The notes below the pieces were generated by a model. The model saw nothing but the letters and a program-made list of their open reading frames with translations, did not search any database and was not told where the DNA came from. Below are positions 9,197 through 32,611 of a stretch of DNA of 33,846 bases, one piece after another. The stretch's first letter is position 1. Each line of letters starts with the position of its first letter. A program made the translations under genes and the position numbers. Origin of the DNA: Candidatus Agathobaculum merdipullorum (GTDB lineage: Bacteria; Bacillota; Clostridia; Oscillospirales; Butyricicoccaceae); NCBI GenBank assembly GCA_019115185.1, contig DXDZ01000036.1:1-33846 (forward strand). The letters are read 5' to 3'.

Positions 9197-9691
9197 ATGA
9201 TACAACTGGACAGGGCCGAGGCCGAACGGTTGGTGAACACCTATTCCGACCTGATTTTGCGGCTTTCGTATACCTATCTGAAAAATACACAGGATGCAGA
9301 GGATATCTGCCAGACCGTGTTCCTCAAACTGCTCACGAGCGGGCAGACGTTTGACAGCCCGGCGCACGAAAAGGCGTGGATCATTCGCGCCACCGCGAAC
9401 GCCTGCAAGGACACGATGCGAAATGCGTTTCGGCGGCGCACGGTAGCGCTCGAAGCGGTGGCGGAAACACCCGCGCCCGCTGCACCTGAAAATGATGTGC
9501 TGGAAGCGGTGATGGCGCTGCCGGAAAACTACCGCGAAGCGGTTTACCTGTATTATTACGAAGGCTACTCCGTCCGCGAGATCGCCGGCCTGCTGGGCCG
9601 CAGCGAATCCGCGGTGACCGCGCACCTGAGCCGGGGACGGCAAAAGCTGCGCATGACTTTGGGAGGGAATGAATATGAACAAAGCGTATAA
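9197..9691 (+). CDS. ECF-type RNA polymerase sigma factor
   Basis: A 164-residue sigma-70 family protein with region 2 (about residues 10-75, with YLKNTQDAEDICQTVFLKLL) and region 4 (about 105-155, with LPENYREAVYLYYYEGYSVREIAGLLGRSESAVTAHLSRGRQKL). The linker in between is short, as in ECF sigma factors. AAAGGAG before the ATG supports the start. The gene overlaps the downstream DUF4179 protein by 17 bases, the classic sigma/anti-sigma arrangement. I could not find a convincing autoregulated ECF promoter upstream. Confidence 0.93.
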   Translation: MIQLDRAEAERLVNTYSDLILRLSYTYLKNTQDAEDICQTVFLKLLTSGQTFDSPAHEKAWIIRATANACKDTMRNAFRRRTVALEAVAETPAPAAPENDVLEAVMALPENYREAVYLYYYEGYSVREIAGLLGRSESAVTAHLSRGRQKLRMTLGGNEYEQSV

Positions 9692-24593: not shown

Positions 24594-24623
24594 CAGTATG
24601 ACCGCGGAGAAAAGGGTTTATAC
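24594..24623 (-). promoter_or_regulatory. SigF-type promoter of spoIIQ
   Basis: On the minus strand GTATA (complement of 24619-24623) is followed after exactly 15 bases by GGTCATACTG (complement of 24594-24603). This fits every position of the SigF consensus GYATA-N15-GGNNANAHTR. The -35 element overlaps the stop codon of spoIID. Confidence 0.8.
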
Positions 24624-25586
24624 ATTGCCAAGCACGGTATTCGGATAATAATGCGCTAAAATTTCCGTATAATCTGCGCCCTGCTCGGCCATGTATTTGG
24701 CGCCGTACTGGGACAGGCCGACGCCGTGGCCGTAGCCGATGGTATGAAAGGTGATGCTGTCATCCGTAGTGGTGATGGTAAAGTTGGTCGATTGCAGGCC
24801 GAACAGCTCGCGCACATCCGTGCCTTCGACAGTCACGCCACCGAGCTGCACGGTGATGACGCCGCCTGCGTCTGAGCGGACGGACGATTTGAACCAGTCA
24901 TCCGGCGGGCCGGACACATCGGCCGACGGGTAGGCCTGCGCGGCTTTATCACGAAATTCAGCCGCGGAAAGGGTGATGGCGGCTTCATAGCCGCTGTACG
25001 CTGTGCCGCCCGGGCTGACTACGCTTTGCAGATAGGGGACATCCTCGCCCCAGACATCGCGCGCGGCTTCGGTGCGAGGCCCGCTGACGCAGTGGAACAC
25101 CGCCGCGATCGGCGCGCCGTCATAGGTCAGGATTTGGCCCTCGGTGTCCTGTACAGCCTGCTGCACGCGCGCCAGATCGTTGCCGGACGCGGTTTCCACC
25201 GCAATATTGCGGTAGGCCGCGCAATGGTGGAAGTCGTCGCATACGTCGGCGTCGGGATGCGCGTCGGGACGGCCCGCCGCCATTTTATAGACCGCATAGG
25301 TGCGCGCGGCGACGGCCTGCGCCTGAATCGCCTCGAGCGGGAAGTCGTTGGGGATCTCGGCGGCCACTACGCCGGCGACATAGTCCTCCAGCGGCAGCGC
25401 GGTTGGCGTGCCGTCGATCAAAACCGTGACAGTCGAATAATCGCCCGTTGGGGCGGTTTGCGTCTGGACTGGAGCGGAAGCAGATGCGGTTTGTCCGGTT
25501 TCGGGTTCGCTGCCGTATAGTAAGACAGTCGGCACAAGATACAGCGCCAACACAAGCCCACATCCGGTCAGCAGCAGTTTGCGCAT
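24618..25586 (-). CDS. spoIID: Stage II sporulation protein D (lytic transglycosylase)
   Basis: A 322-residue SpoIID-family enzyme anchored by an N-terminal TM helix (about residues 5-25). The signature VAAEIPNDFPLEAIQAQAVAARTY contains the catalytic Glu in AEIP; further on are CDDFHHC (the two-Cys metal loop) and GYGHGVGLSQYGAKYMAEQG (three short motifs quoted from adjoining or separate places). It cuts septal peptidoglycan during engulfment together with SpoIIP and SpoIIM. AAGGAGGC precedes the start. A SigE-like -10 (CATATACT, complement of 25610-25617) lies just upstream, but its -35 is not convincing. spoIIQ follows after 46 bases. Confidence 0.93.
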   Translation of the reverse strand: MRKLLLTGCGLVLALYLVPTVLLYGSEPETGQTASASAPVQTQTAPTGDYSTVTVLIDGTPTALPLEDYVAGVVAAEIPNDFPLEAIQAQAVAARTYAVYKMAAGRPDAHPDADVCDDFHHCAAYRNIAVETASGNDLARVQQAVQDTEGQILTYDGAPIAAVFHCVSGPRTEAARDVWGEDVPYLQSVVSPGGTAYSGYEAAITLSAAEFRDKAAQAYPSADVSGPPDDWFKSSVRSDAGGVITVQLGGVTVEGTDVRELFGLQSTNFTITTTDDSITFHTIGYGHGVGLSQYGAKYMAEQGADYTEILAHYYPNTVLGNV

Positions 25587-25657: not shown

Positions 25658-25686
25658 TTGACAAGCCTTCCAATATATTGTATTAT
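25658..25686 (+). promoter_or_regulatory. Strong SigA promoter of the SOS-linked gene pair
   Basis: TTGACA at 25658-25663 and TATTAT at 25681-25686 are exactly 17 bases apart. The transcription start should be near 25693, a few bases before the LexA box. Confidence 0.82.
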
Positions 25687-25701
25687 AAAAAGCAAGGAAC
25701 A

Positions 25702-25715
25702 CGAACAAATGTTCG
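25702..25715. promoter_or_regulatory. LexA (SOS) box
   Basis: CGAACAAATGTTCG agrees fully with the Gram-positive LexA consensus CGAACRNRYGTTCG and is a near-perfect dyad. It sits between the promoter and the ribosome site of the gene at 25737, a normal place for repression by LexA. Confidence 0.85.
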
Positions 25716-25736
25716 ATGAAGATAAGGAGGCATAAA

Positions 25737-25973
25737 ATGCAGCTGCAAGAAATGGCAAGGGAATACCGATCCAACACAGCGCTTCTGGAGCTGCGAGTGA
25801 AGCAATTGCAAATAGCGCGGCGCCGTGCGGGACAGAATGAGGTGAAATATCGTCTCAAACAGCGGATCAACTGTTTGCAAGCCATGATTAACGAAAACCG
25901 CAAAACGGCTTTTGTACTGGAGCATTATTATGACAGAGGAGGAGATGCACATGAAAACGGAAAGGCTGTCTGA
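25737..25973 (+). CDS. Small basic coiled-coil-like protein, first gene of an SOS-controlled pair
   Basis: A 78-residue, highly charged, probably all-helical protein rich in Arg, Lys, Gln and Leu (for example LLELRVKQLQIARRRAG). I do not recognise a family. AAGGAGG six bases upstream defines the ATG at 25737. Its 3' end overlaps the next gene, the sigma-region-4-like protein, by 23 bases, so the two are translationally coupled. The strong promoter and perfect LexA box directly upstream suggest induction by DNA damage. A helper, inhibitor or DNA-binding partner of the second protein is conceivable but not shown. Confidence 0.75.
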   Translation: MQLQEMAREYRSNTALLELRVKQLQIARRRAGQNEVKYRLKQRINCLQAMINENRKTAFVLEHYYDRGGDAHENGKAV

Positions 25974-26268
25974 GCAAGCGGCGAATCGCGCGGCATACGA
26001 ACAGTATATTGCGGAACTGGGCACGGATGACAGTGCGTTTCGCGCCAAATTCCGCGAGGCATTCTTTCATGCCTTGCAGCAGCAGCTGACCGCACGGCAA
26101 TATGAAGTGCTGTGGATGAGCGAGGTCGAGGGACTTTCCGGCAAGGAGATCTCCTACCGGTTGGGCATCAGCCAATCGGCCGTGTCGCGCCACCTGACGC
26201 GCGGGAAAAAGCGGCTGCGCGTGCTGCTGTCCTATAATCTGGAGCTGCGAAGCAATGGGTTTGCGTAG
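25951..26268 (+). CDS. Sigma-70 region 4-like helix-turn-helix protein
   Basis: A 105-residue protein whose C-terminal half (about residues 42-95) is a sigma-70 region 4 domain: LTARQYEVLWMSEVEGLSGKEISYRLGISQSAVSRHLTRG (two adjoining stretches; helix-turn-helix near 60-80). Region 2, needed for -10 recognition, is absent, so it is not a full sigma factor; it may be an anti-sigma-like, phage-ArpU-like or stand-alone transcription regulator. AGGAGG eight bases upstream favours ATG 25951 over the alternative at 25930. It shares the LexA-controlled promoter of the small gene before it and may carry the SOS signal to further genes. Confidence 0.82.
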   Translation: MKTERLSEQAANRAAYEQYIAELGTDDSAFRAKFREAFFHALQQQLTARQYEVLWMSEVEGLSGKEISYRLGISQSAVSRHLTRGKKRLRVLLSYNLELRSNGFA

Positions 26269-26672: not shown

Positions 26673-27931
26673 GCATATAAGCATACGCATAATAGACAAA
26701 AAGACATACGTCTTTTTGCTTATTTCCAGACACGGCAAATAGGAACCGTCTATCCAGACCGCTCCTAAGGGAAAAATATTCTGTTGTTTACGGGGTTATT
26801 GCTTATCGAACCATGGGCGGTAAACCATATTGGAGGTTTTCCAGCCCAGTATCCGACGGGGGTAGTCATTGATCCACGCCTCAACCATTGCTACCTGCTG
26901 GACAGATACTTTGGAGAGATCCGTTCCCTTCGGGAAATGGCGGCGGATCAGTTTGTTGGCATTCTCGTTGCTTCCGCGTTCGTAACTCCTATGGGCATGG
27001 CAGTAATAGACCTTAGTCCGTGCTTTGCGCTTGCTCAGCACGGACTTTTCCATACCCTCAAAGTCCGAAAACTCAGAACCGTTATCCACTGTGATCGTCT
27101 GAAAGACCTTGGAGAACTTGTCGGCACCCATGCTGCGTTCCAGCGCGTTAAGTGCGCGGACAACACTGCCGGACGTCCGATCACGCATACGGATGATCAT
27201 TTCCTGACGGCTGCAGCGTTCCGTCAGGACGAGCAGCGTCGGTTTGAACTTGTCCTTTTTGGAGGTATAAACAGTGTCCATCTCCCAATGGCCGAAGGAT
27301 GCCCTGGCATCCACCTCAGCCGGACGGTATTCAATGCTGGTGCCGCAGGATACGCGCTTTTGGATTTGCTCTTTCTTAGACCGGTTCCTACGCTTCTGCT
27401 TTCCCTTCAGCGGCAGATCTTTCTTTTCACAAGCAAGGACACCCCCTGAAATATAATTGTACAGAGTGCGAGTACAAATGGACGTTTGAAATGTCCTTTT
27501 ACTATTACGGATAGCAGCTAAAGCCGCAGATGGAGAAAATTTCTTTTTGAGAATAAATTTTTCCAGCTCTTTAGCGTAAGCATGGTCATTACCGATTTTG
27601 ATTTGCGTCCCTTTTGCAGCAAGGTTCGCCCTATACTGGCGCTCGGCCTTTTCGGGTGAATACCGTTCCTCTGTTGTAAGATCAGAGTTAGTATGTATGT
27701 AACGACCGCGTTTCAGTTCACGGGCAATGCAGACATGGCTGCACCCTATGACCTCAGCGATCTGTCTTGTAGTCGCACCGTGCAGGCGCATACGCTCAAT
27801 AATCAAGCGTTGATTCCATCGCAAATGCTGACCTTTGTGCCAACGACGCATTACAACATGTTCGTTCTTTCCCATAGTATCCCCTCTAAACTATATATTG
27901 TATGCGTCTTGTATTATAGCACAATATATGC
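26673..27931. mobile_element. IS30-family insertion sequence (ends approximate)
   Basis: A complete IS30-type transposase gene on the minus strand is flanked by imperfectly related ends: GCATATA is found inward-facing at 26673-26679 and, on the other strand, at 27925-27931, with partial similarity continuing inward (ATAATA, then CATAC). I could not identify a target duplication, so the ends may be off by several bases. Confidence 0.55.
26796..27875 (-). CDS. IS30 family transposase
   Basis: A 359-residue DDE transposase. The N-terminal helix-turn-helix region (about residues 20-60, ATTRQIAEVIGCSHVCIARELKRG in two adjoining motifs) is typical of IS30. Catalytic motifs are GHWEMDTV (first Asp), ITVDNGSEF (second Asp) and SYERGSNENANKLIRR (Glu). 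Length and frame are intact, so it may be active. AGAGGGG precedes the start, and an extended -10 (TG-C-TATAAT, minus strand near 27912-27920) lies within the right end of the element. Confidence 0.95.
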   Translation of the reverse strand: MGKNEHVVMRRWHKGQHLRWNQRLIIERMRLHGATTRQIAEVIGCSHVCIARELKRGRYIHTNSDLTTEERYSPEKAERQYRANLAAKGTQIKIGNDHAYAKELEKFILKKKFSPSAALAAIRNSKRTFQTSICTRTLYNYISGGVLACEKKDLPLKGKQKRRNRSKKEQIQKRVSCGTSIEYRPAEVDARASFGHWEMDTVYTSKKDKFKPTLLVLTERCSRQEMIIRMRDRTSGSVVRALNALERSMGADKFSKVFQTITVDNGSEFSDFEGMEKSVLSKRKARTKVYYCHAHRSYERGSNENANKLIRRHFPKGTDLSKVSVQQVAMVEAWINDYPRRILGWKTSNMVYRPWFDKQ

Positions 27932-28011
27932 TAATTTACTTTATTATTTTAATGAATTATTGTGTGAAATTATCAGGTGAAGCTTGTGCAGGATACACAA
28001 ATAAGCATTTA

Positions 28012-28040
28012 TGGACAGTCTGTCTGGATTTTGTTACAAT
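28012..28040 (+). promoter_or_regulatory. Promoter of the 113-aa unknown gene
   Basis: TGGACA at 28012-28017 and TACAAT at 28035-28040 with a 17-base spacer, 33 bases before the start codon. Confidence 0.65.
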
Positions 28041-28072
28041 ACCAAAAGAAGAACAAAAAGGAAGGCAGTGCC

Positions 28073-28414
28073 ATGATAAAGAAATTTCGAAAAGCACCGG
28101 AGATGTTATCTGGATATTACTTTGCCTATGAACTCATGCCGAATGAGGCGCAGGGATATGGTGGAATAGAAGTTTCAGTCCATTATGTGAAAGACCCTGC
28201 AAATGGAAATATGCTGGGCGATGTTTGGCTACGCAGTTTAGAACTGCGTCCAGACATGAAAATCCTTGCGGCATACATTAGCACGGATCGTGGCGTTACA
28301 CGCAAGGAAACCGAGCTGAAGCTTTTGCAGGAGATCAGGAAGTCGGAAGAATTTGAAAAAGCTTTGGATCTGTATATTTCTATGCTGTCCCAATTGCCAA
28401 ACTATGATGGATAA
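28073..28414 (+). CDS. Hypothetical protein, 113 aa
   Basis: I do not recognise this protein. It is soluble, with mixed alpha/beta character: an N-terminal strand-rich part (GGIEVSVHYVKDP, VWLRSLEL) and C-terminal helices (ETELKLLQEIRKSEEFEKAL). AAGGAAGG lies before ATG 28073; the frame is open further upstream but the promoter at 28012-28040 rules out an earlier start. It has its own promoter and terminator and sits between the IS element and the mobilisation genes, with lower GC than the left part of the window, so it may belong to the mobile element or to its boundary. Confidence 0.7.
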   Translation: MIKKFRKAPEMLSGYYFAYELMPNEAQGYGGIEVSVHYVKDPANGNMLGDVWLRSLELRPDMKILAAYISTDRGVTRKETELKLLQEIRKSEEFEKALDLYISMLSQLPNYDG

Positions 28415-28827
28415 GACACCAGAGAAAACCTTATTTTGAGATACGCATAGATATGCTTTGCGTTGAATAAATATGCAATTCTGCTTTGAACGCACAGGAA
28501 TAACCTGTGCGTTTTTGTTTTGCCCGTAATCACAGAATTTTCAAACACTATGTCTAATAATTGCGGTCTTTTTGTGAACAATTTGTAAACAATTAAAAAA
28601 ACGATGCAACACACCCCCCCTATAGAAGCTATAGTAGAGGCTTTTTTCAGAAGCACCGTTTGTGCAGCCTCTGCTGCACCTTGAAAAATGCATAAAATGG
28701 GCGTGCTCCTATGAAGCAAGCACCGGGTAGTTGCAGACCGTTAGGATAAAGGGAAGAGCAACAGCGGGCATTGGCGGCTCAAGACCAATGCACAAAAATC
28801 TGATAGGAAACGGAGGTGAAAGAACAG
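28415..28827. other. Structured, gene-free leader of the mobilisation region
   Basis: After the terminator at 28489-28516 there is no gene up to 28828. The stretch contains a near direct repeat (GTGAACAATTT, GTAAACAATTA, near 28573-28594), a run of seven C, and several dyads: CTATAG-AAG-CTATAG (28620-28634), GTGCAGC/GCTGCAC (28662-28679) and GCATTGG/CCAATGC (28768-28791). It may be a regulatory leader or contain a transfer-related site. Confidence 0.55.
28489..28516 (+). terminator. Terminator of the 113-aa unknown gene
   Basis: A ten-base-pair stem (AACGCACAGG / CCTGTGCGTT) with a five-base loop is followed by further T. Confidence 0.88.
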
Positions 28828-29103
28828 ATGACAACAGATGAGCAGATACACCGGCTGAATAAGGATATCGAACGTCTTAAAGAAAAAGTTAAGATTTACC
28901 AAGGTAAAATATCCCAACTTGCAGAACGCAGAAAAAAGCTGGAAGATCGCGTCTTGCTCGAAATGATAAATGGGATTGCACCAGATTATTCTCAGGCACA
29001 ACAATTGTTGTGCAAGTTGAAGGCAGAGCAAAGAACCGGACAGTGTACAGACGGAGGTGCAGAACATGGCAGCAGCAGCTCGGAGCGACCGCGTGACGGC
29101 TGA
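28828..29103 (+). CDS. DUF4315-like coiled-coil protein of a mobile element
   Basis: A 91-residue protein with an N-terminal coiled coil (about residues 5-45, IHRLNKDIERLKEKVKIY and ISQLAERRKKLEDRVLLEM) followed by a short flexible tail. This pattern matches small DUF4315 proteins that are regular members of Clostridia conjugative elements; the assignment is from memory of the pattern. ATG 28828 follows GGAGG by 11 bases; an in-frame GTG at 28816 overlaps that site and is rejected. Its 3' end overlaps the primase-like gene by 38 bases. Confidence 0.65.
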   Translation: MTTDEQIHRLNKDIERLKEKVKIYQGKISQLAERRKKLEDRVLLEMINGIAPDYSQAQQLLCKLKAEQRTGQCTDGGAEHGSSSSERPRDG

Positions 29104-30049
29104 GCAAATTGAGCGCGCACGAGGTGTAGACCTGATTGCGTTTTTGCGCCAATATGAACCCGGCGAACTAAAGCGTATTGGTCAATCGTGGACACTGAAA
29201 TCACATGACAGTATGCGGATTTCGGCAGATGGCCGATGGAACTGGTTTTCCCAACAAATTGGCGGTGGGGATGCAATCAGTTTTTTGCAAAAGGTACATA
29301 GCATGACTTTCCCCGAAGCGATACGCACACTGGCTGGAGAGGACTATCAAGCATTGCAGACTGATGAATCTGCCAGAGAGCCGCCGCAGCGCAAAGAATT
29401 TTCGTTACCTGCAAGAAACCAAACCAATCGGCGGGCATTCGCGTACCTGTGTTCGCGTGGCATTGATCCTGAGATTATTAACCACTGCATGAGACGTGGG
29501 TTGATATACGAAGATGCGCAGCATCACAATGTGGTGTTTGTTGGTCACGATGAAAAAGGTGCTGCGAAGTATGCCATGCTACGCAGCACGGTATCGAACT
29601 CCAGCTTTAAGATCGAGCAGGCTGGCAGCGACAAAAGCTATGGCTTCTGCATGCAGGGCCGCGGCTCTACACTGTATGTCTGCGAGGCCGCGATTGATGC
29701 TCTTTCGGTAGCCACGCTACGCAAGCTGGGTGGCCGAGATTGGCGGCAGGACAATTATCTGGCGCTGGGTGGTGTCACGGCATCGGCGGAAAAGTTACCG
29801 CTGGCGTTGGAGCGGATGCTGCAAAGTTTTTCTTTTAACCGGATCGTTTTGAGTTTGGATAACGACGAACCGGGCCAGCGTGCATCGCGGAATATTTTCG
29901 CGCTGCTCCGGCAGCGGTATCCGCAAATTGAATCAAAGGTTTGCGTGCCGCAGGAAAAGGATTTCAACGACCAGCTCCGTGTTAAGCTTCAGCAGAATGC
30001 GCAACCGCCGCCTTCGCGCGGTACGCGCGAACTTGGTTTAGCTAAGTAA
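29066..30049 (+). CDS. DUF3991/TOPRIM primase-like protein
   Basis: A 327-residue protein with an N-terminal region resembling primase zinc-finger proteins (about 10-80, with WTLKSHDSMRISADGRWNWF and GGDAISFLQ, but no Cys cluster), a DUF3991 domain (about 115-185, AFAYLCSRGIDPEIINHCM) and a TOPRIM domain (about 195-290) with the conserved Glu in VCEAAIDALS and the Asp pair in LSLDNDEPGQ. Such proteins are typical cargo of Clostridia conjugative elements and probably help prime DNA synthesis after transfer. ATG 29066 has GGAGG eight bases upstream. Confidence 0.85.
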   Translation: MAAAARSDRVTAEQIERARGVDLIAFLRQYEPGELKRIGQSWTLKSHDSMRISADGRWNWFSQQIGGGDAISFLQKVHSMTFPEAIRTLAGEDYQALQTDESAREPPQRKEFSLPARNQTNRRAFAYLCSRGIDPEIINHCMRRGLIYEDAQHHNVVFVGHDEKGAAKYAMLRSTVSNSSFKIEQAGSDKSYGFCMQGRGSTLYVCEAAIDALSVATLRKLGGRDWRQDNYLALGGVTASAEKLPLALERMLQSFSFNRIVLSLDNDEPGQRASRNIFALLRQRYPQIESKVCVPQEKDFNDQLRVKLQQNAQPPPSRGTRELGLAK

Positions 30050-30067
30050 AATCTGATGTCCTCGCAA

Positions 30068-30125
30068 GCATAGTGTTTTGGATAGCCAAAACACGCTTGT
30101 TAAGGGGCGCAGCCCCCTAAGACCC
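30068..30125 (+). repeat. Candidate origin of transfer: paired hairpins before mobC
   Basis: Immediately upstream of mobC are the perfect dyad GTGTTTTGG-ATAG-CCAAAACAC (30073-30094) and then the GC-rich dyad TTAAGGGG.. / ..CCCCTAA (about 30100-30120) followed by a C-rich stretch. Hairpins right before the relaxosome genes are the usual place of oriT in mobilisable elements. The nick site cannot be assigned by eye. Confidence 0.5.
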
Positions 30126-30154
30126 CCAAACGGACAGAACGGAGGAAAACGTAA

Positions 30155-30463
30155 ATGCGCAGACGCGCAAATCAAATCATCATCCGCTTGAATGACGAAG
30201 AGCATTCTCTCTTAAAGAGAAAAGTGAAGGATAGCGGAATGTCTATGTCGAAGTTTTTTCGAGTGTTGATCCTTTCTGGTGAAGTCAAAGTTTTATCACC
30301 TGAGTTTGTGCGTGATATCCAGCGGCAGGTTCGTGGTGTAGGTCGAAATATCAACCAGATAGCGCGGCTGGCGCATATTTCAGGTAAGGTTTCCAAGGAA
30401 ACCCTGCTTCAAATTTCTGCGGAACAGGAAAAGCTTGAACAAATGCTGGAACGGCTGGAATAA
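30155..30463 (+). CDS. mobC: MobC-type relaxosome accessory protein
   Basis: A 102-residue protein with an N-terminal ribbon-helix-helix-like DNA-binding part (residues 1-45, IIIRLNDEEHSLLKRKVKD) and the MobC signature VRGVGRNINQIARLAH (about 66-82). It would bind oriT next to the relaxase. GGAGG precedes the ATG by about ten bases. The last base of its stop codon is the first base of the relaxase ATG, a tight coupling typical of mobC-relaxase pairs. Confidence 0.92.
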   Translation: MRRRANQIIIRLNDEEHSLLKRKVKDSGMSMSKFFRVLILSGEVKVLSPEFVRDIQRQVRGVGRNINQIARLAHISGKVSKETLLQISAEQEKLEQMLERLE

Positions 30464-31950
30464 TGGCAGTTCTCAAAATACATGTCATTCGTCAGCGGTT
30501 GGATAAGCGCGTCGCATACGTGCAGAATACGGAGAAAACTGCCTGTTCCGGTTTTCACAGTTTGCATGGAATCAAAGATACGTTAACTTCTGCTTTTAAT
30601 TGTTCGTGCGAAGTCGCATATACGCAGATGCTCGAAACGAAACGGCATTTCAAAAAAACAGACAAGGTACAAGGGTTTCATTTTATCCAGTCCTTTAAGC
30701 CGGGTGAGGTAACGCCAGAACAGGCGCACCAGCTTGGCTGTGAATTTATCGAGCGATGCTTTGCTAATGATTATGAGGTCGTGATTGGTACGCATACAGA
30801 TCGCGCTCACATTCACAATCACATCATAGTCAATTCAGTGTCGTTTGTAGATGGACATAAATATCAATCCACGCCAGCGACCTTTTACGAATTACGCGGT
30901 ATCTCTGATGAGATTTGCAAAGCACATGGGTTATCTGTTATTCAGAATCCAAGTGTCAAAGCCGGAAAGCATTATGCGGAATGGCGTGCGGAGAAAGAAA
31001 ACCGACCTACACTTCGCAGCATGATCCGTGAGGATATTGATGTGATACTGGCGCAGGCACGCACCATGGATGATTTTTGGGATATGCTGCGTGGGCGCGG
31101 ATATGAAATTCGGCTCAACGAAAAGCGGAAATACGTTACGATCCGGCATCCAAACGGCGAGCGGTTCATCCGCCTGAAATCGCTGGGCGAGGACTATACG
31201 CCCCGGCAGCTCGCAGCGCGGATCGCAGCGCAGCGCGGCCATGTTGTGCAGAATATCCAGCGGATACAGATGCAGCAGCAAAAACTTGGTCAGCGCAAAA
31301 AGTATTATCCCATGCCGCACACCGCAGCGCCCCAAAAACGCAAAAAGTTACACGGCTTCCGTGCTTTATATTGGCGCTATTTGTATATGCTGGGAAAGGT
31401 AAAAAAACGAAAAGCGCCGAGAAAAGTACGCGGTGAAATAATGTCTGAACTGAAAAAGTTGGATCGCTATACTAAGCAGTATTATTTCCTGCGCGACCAC
31501 CAGTTGAGTACCCGAAACGACGTTGCATTGTATGCAGATGCGGTTGCCGATGAAATTGATATCCTGACAGACCGCCGCGCACGATTGTATGCGGATAGGT
31601 GCAGGCCGGAAACCGATCACGCTGCATTGCAGACCGAAACAAAGCAGTTGACCGCTGAACTGCGCAGGCTGCGGAAGGAGCAACGTTTATGCAATGTTAT
31701 CCAGAATACCGCACCGGCTATCAAGGCGCGGTTGGATGCGGCTACAGCGGAACAGAAACGGATCGAAGTAAGAATAGGAGGCGATCAATATGAACCCGGA
31801 AAGTACAGCAGCAGACCAGATTTTACGCATGGAACTGATGGTAACGGAATGCGCGATCAGGATGGCATCAAACGGAGCGGTGAATATCGCAGCACTGCTG
31901 GTAGCCCTGCTTCGCAACGAGAAGCAGATCGCGGGAAAGACAGATATTGA
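30463..31950 (+). CDS. MOB-P type relaxase (mobilisation nuclease)
   Basis: A 495-residue relaxase of the MobA/VirD2 superfamily. The presumed nucleophile is Tyr19 (RVAYVQN), and the metal-binding HxHxH is His116/118/120 in HTDRAHIHNHIIVNSV. The C-terminal half (about 260-440) is basic and helical, with coiled-coil segments. It nicks oriT and leads the strand into the recipient. The gene runs on for 161 bases beyond the start of the next gene; the final 55 or so residues encoded in the overlap look non-conserved and low-complexity. Confidence 0.92.
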   Translation: MAVLKIHVIRQRLDKRVAYVQNTEKTACSGFHSLHGIKDTLTSAFNCSCEVAYTQMLETKRHFKKTDKVQGFHFIQSFKPGEVTPEQAHQLGCEFIERCFANDYEVVIGTHTDRAHIHNHIIVNSVSFVDGHKYQSTPATFYELRGISDEICKAHGLSVIQNPSVKAGKHYAEWRAEKENRPTLRSMIREDIDVILAQARTMDDFWDMLRGRGYEIRLNEKRKYVTIRHPNGERFIRLKSLGEDYTPRQLAARIAAQRGHVVQNIQRIQMQQQKLGQRKKYYPMPHTAAPQKRKKLHGFRALYWRYLYMLGKVKKRKAPRKVRGEIMSELKKLDRYTKQYYFLRDHQLSTRNDVALYADAVADEIDILTDRRARLYADRCRPETDHAALQTETKQLTAELRRLRKEQRLCNVIQNTAPAIKARLDAATAEQKRIEVRIGGDQYEPGKYSSRPDFTHGTDGNGMRDQDGIKRSGEYRSTAGSPASQREADRGKDRY

Positions 31951-32611
31951 GAAGATAATTCAATCCGGCACACCCACCAGCTTCCCATTGGCAGCAGAAA
32001 AAATGCAGGAATTTTCCAAACTGGCAAAAGAGTATGGCGTGATGTGCACTTTTGTTCGAGACCCCAAGAATCCGGATACGGTGGACGTCATTGTAAGGGC
32101 GGAAGATGCAAAACTGGTAAACATTGTGCGGGAGAGAATCGGTGCTACGGCAGAGGTGAGTGAAAAAAACGTGGATGCCGGTCTGTCAGAGAGCGAATCG
32201 GTGAAATCCGAGATTATGAATCAGCACGGACCGGCATCAACAACGACTACGACTAAATTGCCACAGGCACAGGCAGACGGTATGCTGTCCCGGCTGGATC
32301 AAATCCGCGCAGCATTGGCGAGTGGCGCGGGATTGGAACAGTGCCGTACCCAATTACACGCGATACAGGATGAACTGGGTCGGGCGCTGGGTATGCCAGA
32401 GCGCTCGCAGGACAAAGATGCAACACGGGTAGCAACTTCTGAAAAACGAACACAGTATCGAGAAAAGCATGCAGCTCGTACAGATGGTAAGCCGTCAGTG
32501 CGTGACAGAATAGCGAGTATCAAAGACCGTCTCGCCCATGAGCCGCAGCATCTCAAACAGCCGCAGCATACTTTTCAGCCGCCGACTGGAAAAAATCCAA
32601 TGGTAAAATAA
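31790..32611 (+). CDS. PcfB-like (DUF3801) conjugation protein
   Basis: A 273-residue protein. Residues 15-125 match the PcfB/DUF3801 pattern: AVNIAALLVALLRNEKQIAGKT, EFSKLAKEYGVMCTFVRDPK and VDVIVRAEDAKLVNIVRERIG (separate stretches; the first is from two adjoining motifs). The rest is a hydrophilic tail rich in Gln, Lys and Arg. PcfB is the relaxosome accessory factor of the enterococcal pCF10 system, linking relaxosome and coupling protein. GGAGG ten bases before the ATG supports this start in spite of the long overlap with the relaxase gene. Confidence 0.83.
   Translation: MNPESTAADQILRMELMVTECAIRMASNGAVNIAALLVALLRNEKQIAGKTDIEKIIQSGTPTSFPLAAEKMQEFSKLAKEYGVMCTFVRDPKNPDTVDVIVRAEDAKLVNIVRERIGATAEVSEKNVDAGLSESESVKSEIMNQHGPASTTTTTKLPQAQADGMLSRLDQIRAALASGAGLEQCRTQLHAIQDELGRALGMPERSQDKDATRVATSEKRTQYREKHAARTDGKPSVRDRIASIKDRLAHEPQHLKQPQHTFQPPTGKNPMVK

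Follow-up and report, generated by a model that had tools for sequence, protein, structure and literature searches.

A predicted LexA-controlled gene pair for a helical hairpin protein and a free-standing sigma region 4 in Agathobaculum

Can a protein that carries region 4 of a sigma-70 factor and no region 2 pass the DNA-damage signal on to RNA polymerase? The question is raised by two overlapping open reading frames, ORF1 and ORF2, in a contig of 33,846 nucleotides (nt) from Candidatus Agathobaculum merdipullorum (DXDZ01000036.1, assembly GCA_019115185.1), the whole of which we call the window. A first-pass annotation had described here a near-consensus promoter, TTGACA-N17-TATTAT, a perfect LexA box and two overlapping small genes, and had allowed for a link to a mobile element. 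Direct reading of the DNA confirms the promoter, the box and the genes (Table 1), and the coding status of the genes is backed by the ratio of nonsynonymous to synonymous substitution rates (dN/dS). We propose that the two genes form an operon of the Agathobaculum backbone, repressed by LexA, and that their products would together redirect RNA polymerase as a second tier of the SOS response, and we give this reading about an even chance.

Both genes occur in 20 of 25 Agathobaculum genomes, including that of the window, and the ORF2 orthologues have at least 63% identity; the 19 from other genomes share 63–88% of their residues with the window copy. One locus with a partial match of 53 residues and without the small gene (L023, genome G024) was left out of the genus counts. 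The two frames overlap by 23 nt in 17 of the 20 loci, the window among them, by 20 nt in one and by 32 nt in another, and in one the overlap was not resolved. The earliest ATG of the ORF2 frame, at 25930, would give a protein of 112 residues. Because a well-placed Shine-Dalgarno sequence precedes ATG 25951 genus-wide, this codon was taken as the start, which gives 105 residues; as ORF2 has its own ribosome-binding site, a frameshift fusion of the two frames was dropped. Both genes are under purifying selection, with a median dN/dS of 0.13 for ORF1 (113 pairs) and 0.155 for ORF2 (120 pairs), calculated without the overlap from 16 of the 20 genus sequences after four of differing length had been dropped. 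Given these low medians, both frames are truly coding.

In the window, the box CGAACAAATGTTCG has two perfect half sites around a centre, AAAT, that is not palindromic, so that the description ‘perfect’ holds for the half sites and not for the centre. The motif by itself is not rare and so proves nothing. Matches to CGAACRNRYGTTYG with up to two mismatches number 18 in the window against a mean of 14.0 in shuffles, and 21 of 100 shuffles reach 18. In the 1.70-Mb genome of the window, exact CGAACN4GTTCG occurs once and a reversed control pattern seven times; for exact GAACN4GTTC the numbers are 32 and 46. The weight of the evidence comes from the position of the box behind a promoter, its conservation throughout the genus and above that of its flanks, and its agreement with the sites at lexA and recA in this genus. 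Exact GAACN4GTTC, cited as the SOS box of Bacillus subtilis in a passage of PMC4234289, is present just past the −10 element in all 20 genus orthologues, as is the promoter itself (TTGACA with TATTAT or TATTCT). The ten fixed letters of CGAACN4GTTCG are exact in 17 of these and carry one mismatch in three; in one locus (L020) the box lies about 46 nt farther upstream of ORF2 than elsewhere in the genus. Mean column conservation over the 20 loci is 1.00 for the −35 element, 0.975 for the −10 element and 0.97 for the box, compared with 0.75 for the spacer and 0.65 for the sequence flanking the box.

The genome of the window encodes LexA, as a product with LexA_DNA_bind and S24 domains, and its lexA promoter holds CGAACGTATGTTCC and CAAACAAATGTTTG. 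Across the genus, all 23 lexA promoters and all 24 recA promoters carry a site within one mismatch of GAACN4GTTC; it is exact at 19 of the lexA loci and at none of the recA loci, 19 of which read CGAACAAATTTTCG. The box CGAACAAATGTTCG is identical to the recA-promoter site CGAACAAATTTTCG of its own genome in 13 of 14 letters. The pair thus has what marks an operator of the Gram-positive LexA regulon, namely GAACN4GTTC within the promoter, in agreement with the sites at the organism's own lexA and recA. LexA control of the gene pair is very likely on this evidence, and direct repression would fit a box placed just past the −10 element of a promoter that, from its consensus, is presumably of the sigma-A type.

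Table 1. Coordinates of the gene pair, its predicted control elements and the divergent neighbour in the window.
Feature	Position	Strand	Description
Vegetative-type promoter	25658..25686	+	TTGACA 25658-25663, 17-nt spacer, TATTAT 25681-25686
LexA box CGAACAAATGTTCG (predicted operator)	25702..25715	+	starts 15 nt past the −10 hexamer
Shine-Dalgarno AAGGAGG ahead of ORF1	25724-25730	+	direct reading of the sequence
ORF1	25737..25973	+	78-residue basic protein, pI 9.9; predicted antiparallel two-helix hairpin
Shine-Dalgarno GGAGGAG for ORF2, within ORF1	25938..25944	+	sequence; GGAG-type motif in the genus alignment
ORF2	25951..26268	+	105 residues; free-standing sigma-70 region 4, without region 2
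spoIID, divergent neighbour, outside the two-gene unit	24618..25586	−	PF08486, 5.4e-28

Region 4 of a sigma factor reads the −35 element and contacts the flap of RNA polymerase, and lacks the part that opens the promoter. The first-pass assignment of ORF2 to sigma-70 region 4 without region 2 is borne out by family searches, in which two region 4 models score above their cut-offs (PF08281, Sigma70_r4_2, at 1.3e-12 and TIGR02937 at 1.8e-13) and no region 2 family is found among 25 of the 26 families listed. Of the two parts expected of a sigma-70 factor, ORF2 therefore has region 4, for −35 recognition, and not region 2, for −10 recognition and core binding, in the same protein. Sequence matches are to SigF and other sigma chains, and sigma region 4 domains lead the Foldseek matches, with a best expect value (E) of 3e-3 and none under 0.001. 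The predicted structure has five helices, two of them N-terminal to the region 4 part, with a predicted local distance difference test score (pLDDT) of 79.5 that is lower in the N-terminal third. By these comparisons ORF2 is a free-standing, complete sigma region 4 without region 2, and from this domain a role as second-tier regulator is plausible. Elsewhere in the window, at 9524-9670, a 176-residue frame contains a second sigma-like region 4 match with 41% identity to ORF2 over 49 residues.

ORF1 was likewise rightly described as an unrecognised helical basic protein, with an isoelectric point (pI) of 9.9. Its AlphaFold2 model is a two-helix hairpin (residues 2-30 and 34-62; mean pLDDT 87.7), and no convincing family was found in Pfam, NCBIfam or PHROGs. 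The best of its scattered matches, to DUF6381 and DUF6329 at 1.2e-4, are found in five and in one, respectively, of the 24 hairpin proteins, and the window copy has neither. No region 2 family appears among the three families matched by the window ORF1 or among 25 of the 32 Pfam families listed for the 24 hairpin proteins, and NCBIfam gives one non-significant sigma-32 match in one of the 24 (E 0.092). Fold searches returned no informative match, the best having E 0.27 among viral structures and 1.1 in the PDB. Two further non-significant results were not used: a hairpin profile searched against solved sequences matched only RNA polymerase beta-prime chains (E 0.62-0.78), and GreA_GreB_N matched one of the 24 hairpin proteins (E 0.058).

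Of 45 bacterial loci examined from two families, 42 have the two genes side by side: all 20 loci of the genus, 11 of 12 from the rest of the family and 11 of 12 from the second family, but not the one paralogous locus (G009:C6). Of the 22 loci outside the genus with both genes, 21 have ORF2 in the +1 frame. This near-constant pairing suggests that ORF1 and ORF2 work together. In undamaged cells, LexA bound to the box just past the −10 element would block a strong vegetative promoter. DNA damage would lead to self-cleavage of LexA, the promoter would be freed, and both proteins would be made together, with translation of ORF2 from its start within ORF1 probably coupled to that of ORF1, in keeping with the observed arrangement. 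Most likely, the ORF1 hairpin and ORF2 would then bind each other and redirect RNA polymerase to promoters chosen by region 4, either as a split sigma-like factor or as a polymerase-bound co-regulator, and in this way add a second tier to the SOS response.

The place of the pair in the genome bears on whether it belongs to the host. At all 19 genus loci that come from named records it adjoins spoIID and is transcribed away from it. In nine of the 19, rpsO lies within about 0.6 kb downstream, and in two more it lies farther on; the gene was recognised by an S15 sequence motif, read by eye in L209, and not by a family search. At another locus (L091) the large gene past rpsO encodes PNPase. Beside the pair in the window rpsO was looked for and not found. 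Positions 26799-32608 hold a transposase gene (rve and HTH_38 domains), which we take to be of the IS30 type, and then genes for a relaxase and for DUF3991/Toprim, DUF3801 and DUF4315 proteins, the last just under its cut-off. A conjugative or mobilisable region thus stands beside the pair, where nine of the 19 genus loci carry rpsO. The pair is part of the Agathobaculum backbone, and the mobile region looks like a newcomer next to it. The possibility that the pair is part of the adjacent mobile element, raised in the first-pass annotation, is not supported, since the pair keeps the same spoIID-side place in all 19 loci.

How far the pair and its control extend was followed with an ORF1 profile, which matches 31 of 87 family genomes, including 20 from the genus, and 31 of 394 genomes sampled from the order, including 13 from the second family. 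In a class-wide sample, a broader profile (E up to 1e-4) matches two of 391 genomes, one being that of the window. Boxes outside the genus were counted at 12 loci of the family (L081-L090, L124, L148) and 12 of the second family (L125-L136), leaving out a copy in G166, a copy in G033:C12 and the second G050 fragment. Three of the 12 family loci have exact GAACN4GTTC a short way ahead of ORF1: one from Intestinibacillus (L081, the proteins of which are identical to those of L110, also Intestinibacillus), and L086 and L090, both from genus g3. A box matching at seven of eight positions lies ahead of the hairpin gene in L082 (G050), and one genome, G037, has two copies, one with the box and one without. 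The G009:C6 paralogue (L149), counted as unpaired, has no box better than three mismatches within 600 nt. In genus g3 (L084-L090, L124), the hairpin frame extends over the sigma gene in a different frame, and most of these loci have a conserved basic stretch resembling RGRPRKKFSR. The second-family pair (in L136, the hairpin gene alone) is divergent from tRNA-Thr(TGT)-tRNA-Tyr(GTA) in 12 of 12 loci, and in at least six a small CxxC-type frame directly precedes it.

Several results weigh against the proposed operon and its role. The expectation that orthologues would also carry the box, which the first-pass annotation had set as its check, is borne out in the genus and fails for most loci beyond it. 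Outside the genus, eight of the 12 family loci lack a box ahead of the start codon, although in two of these eight (L087 and L089) a seven-of-eight match spans that codon, and none of the 12 second-family loci has an exact site within 350 nt. Four of the latter (L125, L128, L130, L133) have exact GAACN4GTTC 470-588 nt upstream of the hairpin gene, past the divergent tRNAs, and these sites may belong to another SOS gene. As most family loci outside the genus and all second-family loci are without a nearby box, DNA damage is, to judge from the promoter regions, not the general input of the module. The lack of an exact site within 350 nt throughout the second family means that either the module predates its LexA control or the second family has lost nearby control, as far as sequence can tell. 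The pair is also evidently dispensable, being lost in G023 and absent from its place beside spoIID in G004 and G005. In G023 (L209) spoIID, the promoter, the exact box, the ribosome-binding site and the start codon are kept, the frame ends after ten codons, and neither gene was found elsewhere in the genome, save for a distant sigma match; the locus is predicted to be an orphan SOS promoter. In G004 and G005 a different gene adjoins spoIID, and any box-like match there has two or more mismatches; in G010 (no spoIID match) and G024 (distant spoIID match only) absence is not judgeable. ORF1 may act alone, since L082 and the IMG/VR contig L139 carry the hairpin gene without ORF2. Finally, with no similarity to region 2 and a simple predicted hairpin, ORF1 offers no visible replacement for the part that opens promoters. 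The lone hairpin gene of L082 is followed by an inverted repeat that resembles a terminator by eye.

A broader version of the proposal is that the region 4 protein and a hairpin that binds polymerase or region 4 would form a novel two-part regulator, a module under differing inputs in two families, run by LexA as a second SOS tier in Agathobaculum and some of its kin; this we put forward tentatively, as rather doubtful. In our judgement, little work has been done on the SOS response in non-pathogenic gut Clostridia, and a literature search returned no paper joining Agathobaculum and the SOS response. If the proposal is true, damage not only frees repair genes from LexA but also installs a second regulator with promoters of its own, and the absence of region 2 makes the pair well suited to a clean test of how a free sigma region 4 with a hairpin partner affects RNA polymerase. 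The natural deletion of the gene pair in one species (G023) provides a ready comparison.

The same two proteins could also oppose each other, ORF2 being a DNA-binding regulator and ORF1 an anti-sigma-like hairpin inhibitor that holds region 4 until a second signal, so that SOS induction would supply a poised pair. We consider this unlikely. The genes are linked and overlapping, as such an arrangement would have them, and basic ORF1 could face residues 1-45 of ORF2, which have a net charge of −1, although ORF2 is itself basic overall (pI 9.6). RsiG, a hairpin anti-sigma factor with a cyclic di-GMP motif that acts on WhiG, offers a precedent, and RsiG-WhiG entries turn up as weak structural matches to ORF2; ORF1 itself, however, has no informative structural match and no anti-sigma family among those listed. 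The hairpin gene, moreover, stands first and can exist alone, as in L082. Very improbable, in our view, is that ORF2 would be an adaptor with a region 4 fold, like YlxM, and not a transcription factor, the pair affecting some other process such as the neighbouring sporulation. Structures of the YlxM-type UPF0122 family, 1xsv and 1s7o (the latter presumably of this family), give weak structural matches to ORF2, the family model matches it at 0.0019, under its cut-off, and spoIID is the constant neighbour in the genus. Against these stand the far higher scores of the sigma region 4 models, both over cut-off, and two genomes, G031 and G045, in which spoIID lies about 18 and about 42 kb from the pair.

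Descent from a phage or conjugative element would explain the LexA control without a present role in the host, the pair then being a domesticated regulator. Single relatives on IMG/VR contigs point this way (L137, ORF2-like; L139, ORF1-like; L138, ORF1-like, cut by the contig end and also carrying an apparent phage integrase by eye), as does the loss of the pair in some species. Purifying selection on both genes argues for a function, however, and their place is fixed, beside spoIID in the 19 genus loci and beside tRNA-Thr and tRNA-Tyr in the 12 second-family loci. Among 50,697 phage records, ORF2 matches three with a threshold E of 0.01 and 31 when the threshold is raised to 10. With a threshold of 1, ORF1 matches 104; 103 of these belong to Mycobacterium phages, and the 19 of them that were listed are matches to tape-measure proteins. 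ORF1 has no plasmid match at E up to 0.01. MT836668 is the sole record of the phage collection matched by both proteins, and its genes are bacterial by eye (YitT, PEP carboxykinase, Kdp-type regulators). We therefore judge a domesticated regulator improbable, and a phage origin of the pair is unsupported by these searches, the sole joint record being bacterial. MT836668 (L140), filed as ‘Bacteriophage sp.’, carries the pair together with bacterial-looking housekeeping genes, and it seems to be mislabelled.

Among known systems, UviA of Clostridium perfringens bacteriocin plasmids, reportedly a sigma factor tied to ultraviolet induction, is set apart by its description as a larger, plasmid-borne protein. 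SigN (ZpdN) of the Bacillus subtilis plasmid pBS32 is described, in the passages concerned, as having a LexA-repressed promoter with a GAAC-type inverted repeat and as induced by mitomycin C (PMC6751061). As far as sequence and those passages tell, the two systems are alike in having a sigma-type product and, for the pair, a predicted LexA input; the pair differs in its region 4 alone, its hairpin partner and its location in the host backbone. In SigO-RsoA, according to the relevant passages, sigma regions 4 and 2 are found in separate proteins, RsoA being the region 2 part (PMC8103513, PMC10028694). Both systems thus consist of a region 4 protein and a second small protein, but ORF1 has no region 2 match and is a predicted hairpin, and the relevant passages on SigO-RsoA mention no LexA control (PMC8103513, PMC10028694). 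A two-subunit sigma factor of the SigO-RsoA type was rejected, since ORF1 shows no region 2 in the tests run.

Xpf, the positive control factor of the PBSX prophage, is sigma-like and linked to DNA damage, and has both region 2 and region 4 in the account seen in part (PMC10141391). The Xpf model, PRK06930/NF005385, aligns with ORF2 over region 4 only (model positions 110-159 of 170), with 27.4 bits against a cut-off of 136. The model is listed for none of the 24 hairpin proteins at E up to 1, a search in which the HMMER filters drop most weak matches. An Xpf-type search of the order gave matches in 40 of 147 sampled genomes at E up to 1e-8 and in none of the 147 over the cut-off. The idea that Xpf is the pair in fused form is unsupported, as the model covers only region 4 of ORF2 and is listed for no hairpin protein.

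The box of the operon is one of five among the 32 exact GAACN4GTTC sites of its genome that have AAAT or ATTT at the centre. The others are near genes for a serine recombinase, an MgsA/RarA ATPase and a YpsA-family protein, and one is near no clear gene. On four other contigs of this genome (C41, C48, C66 and C80; loci L053, L054, L056 and L057), LexA-type sites lie at the start, or close before it, of two serine recombinase genes, one MgsA/RarA ATPase gene and one YpsA-family (SLOG) gene, which suggests that these may be further SOS genes.
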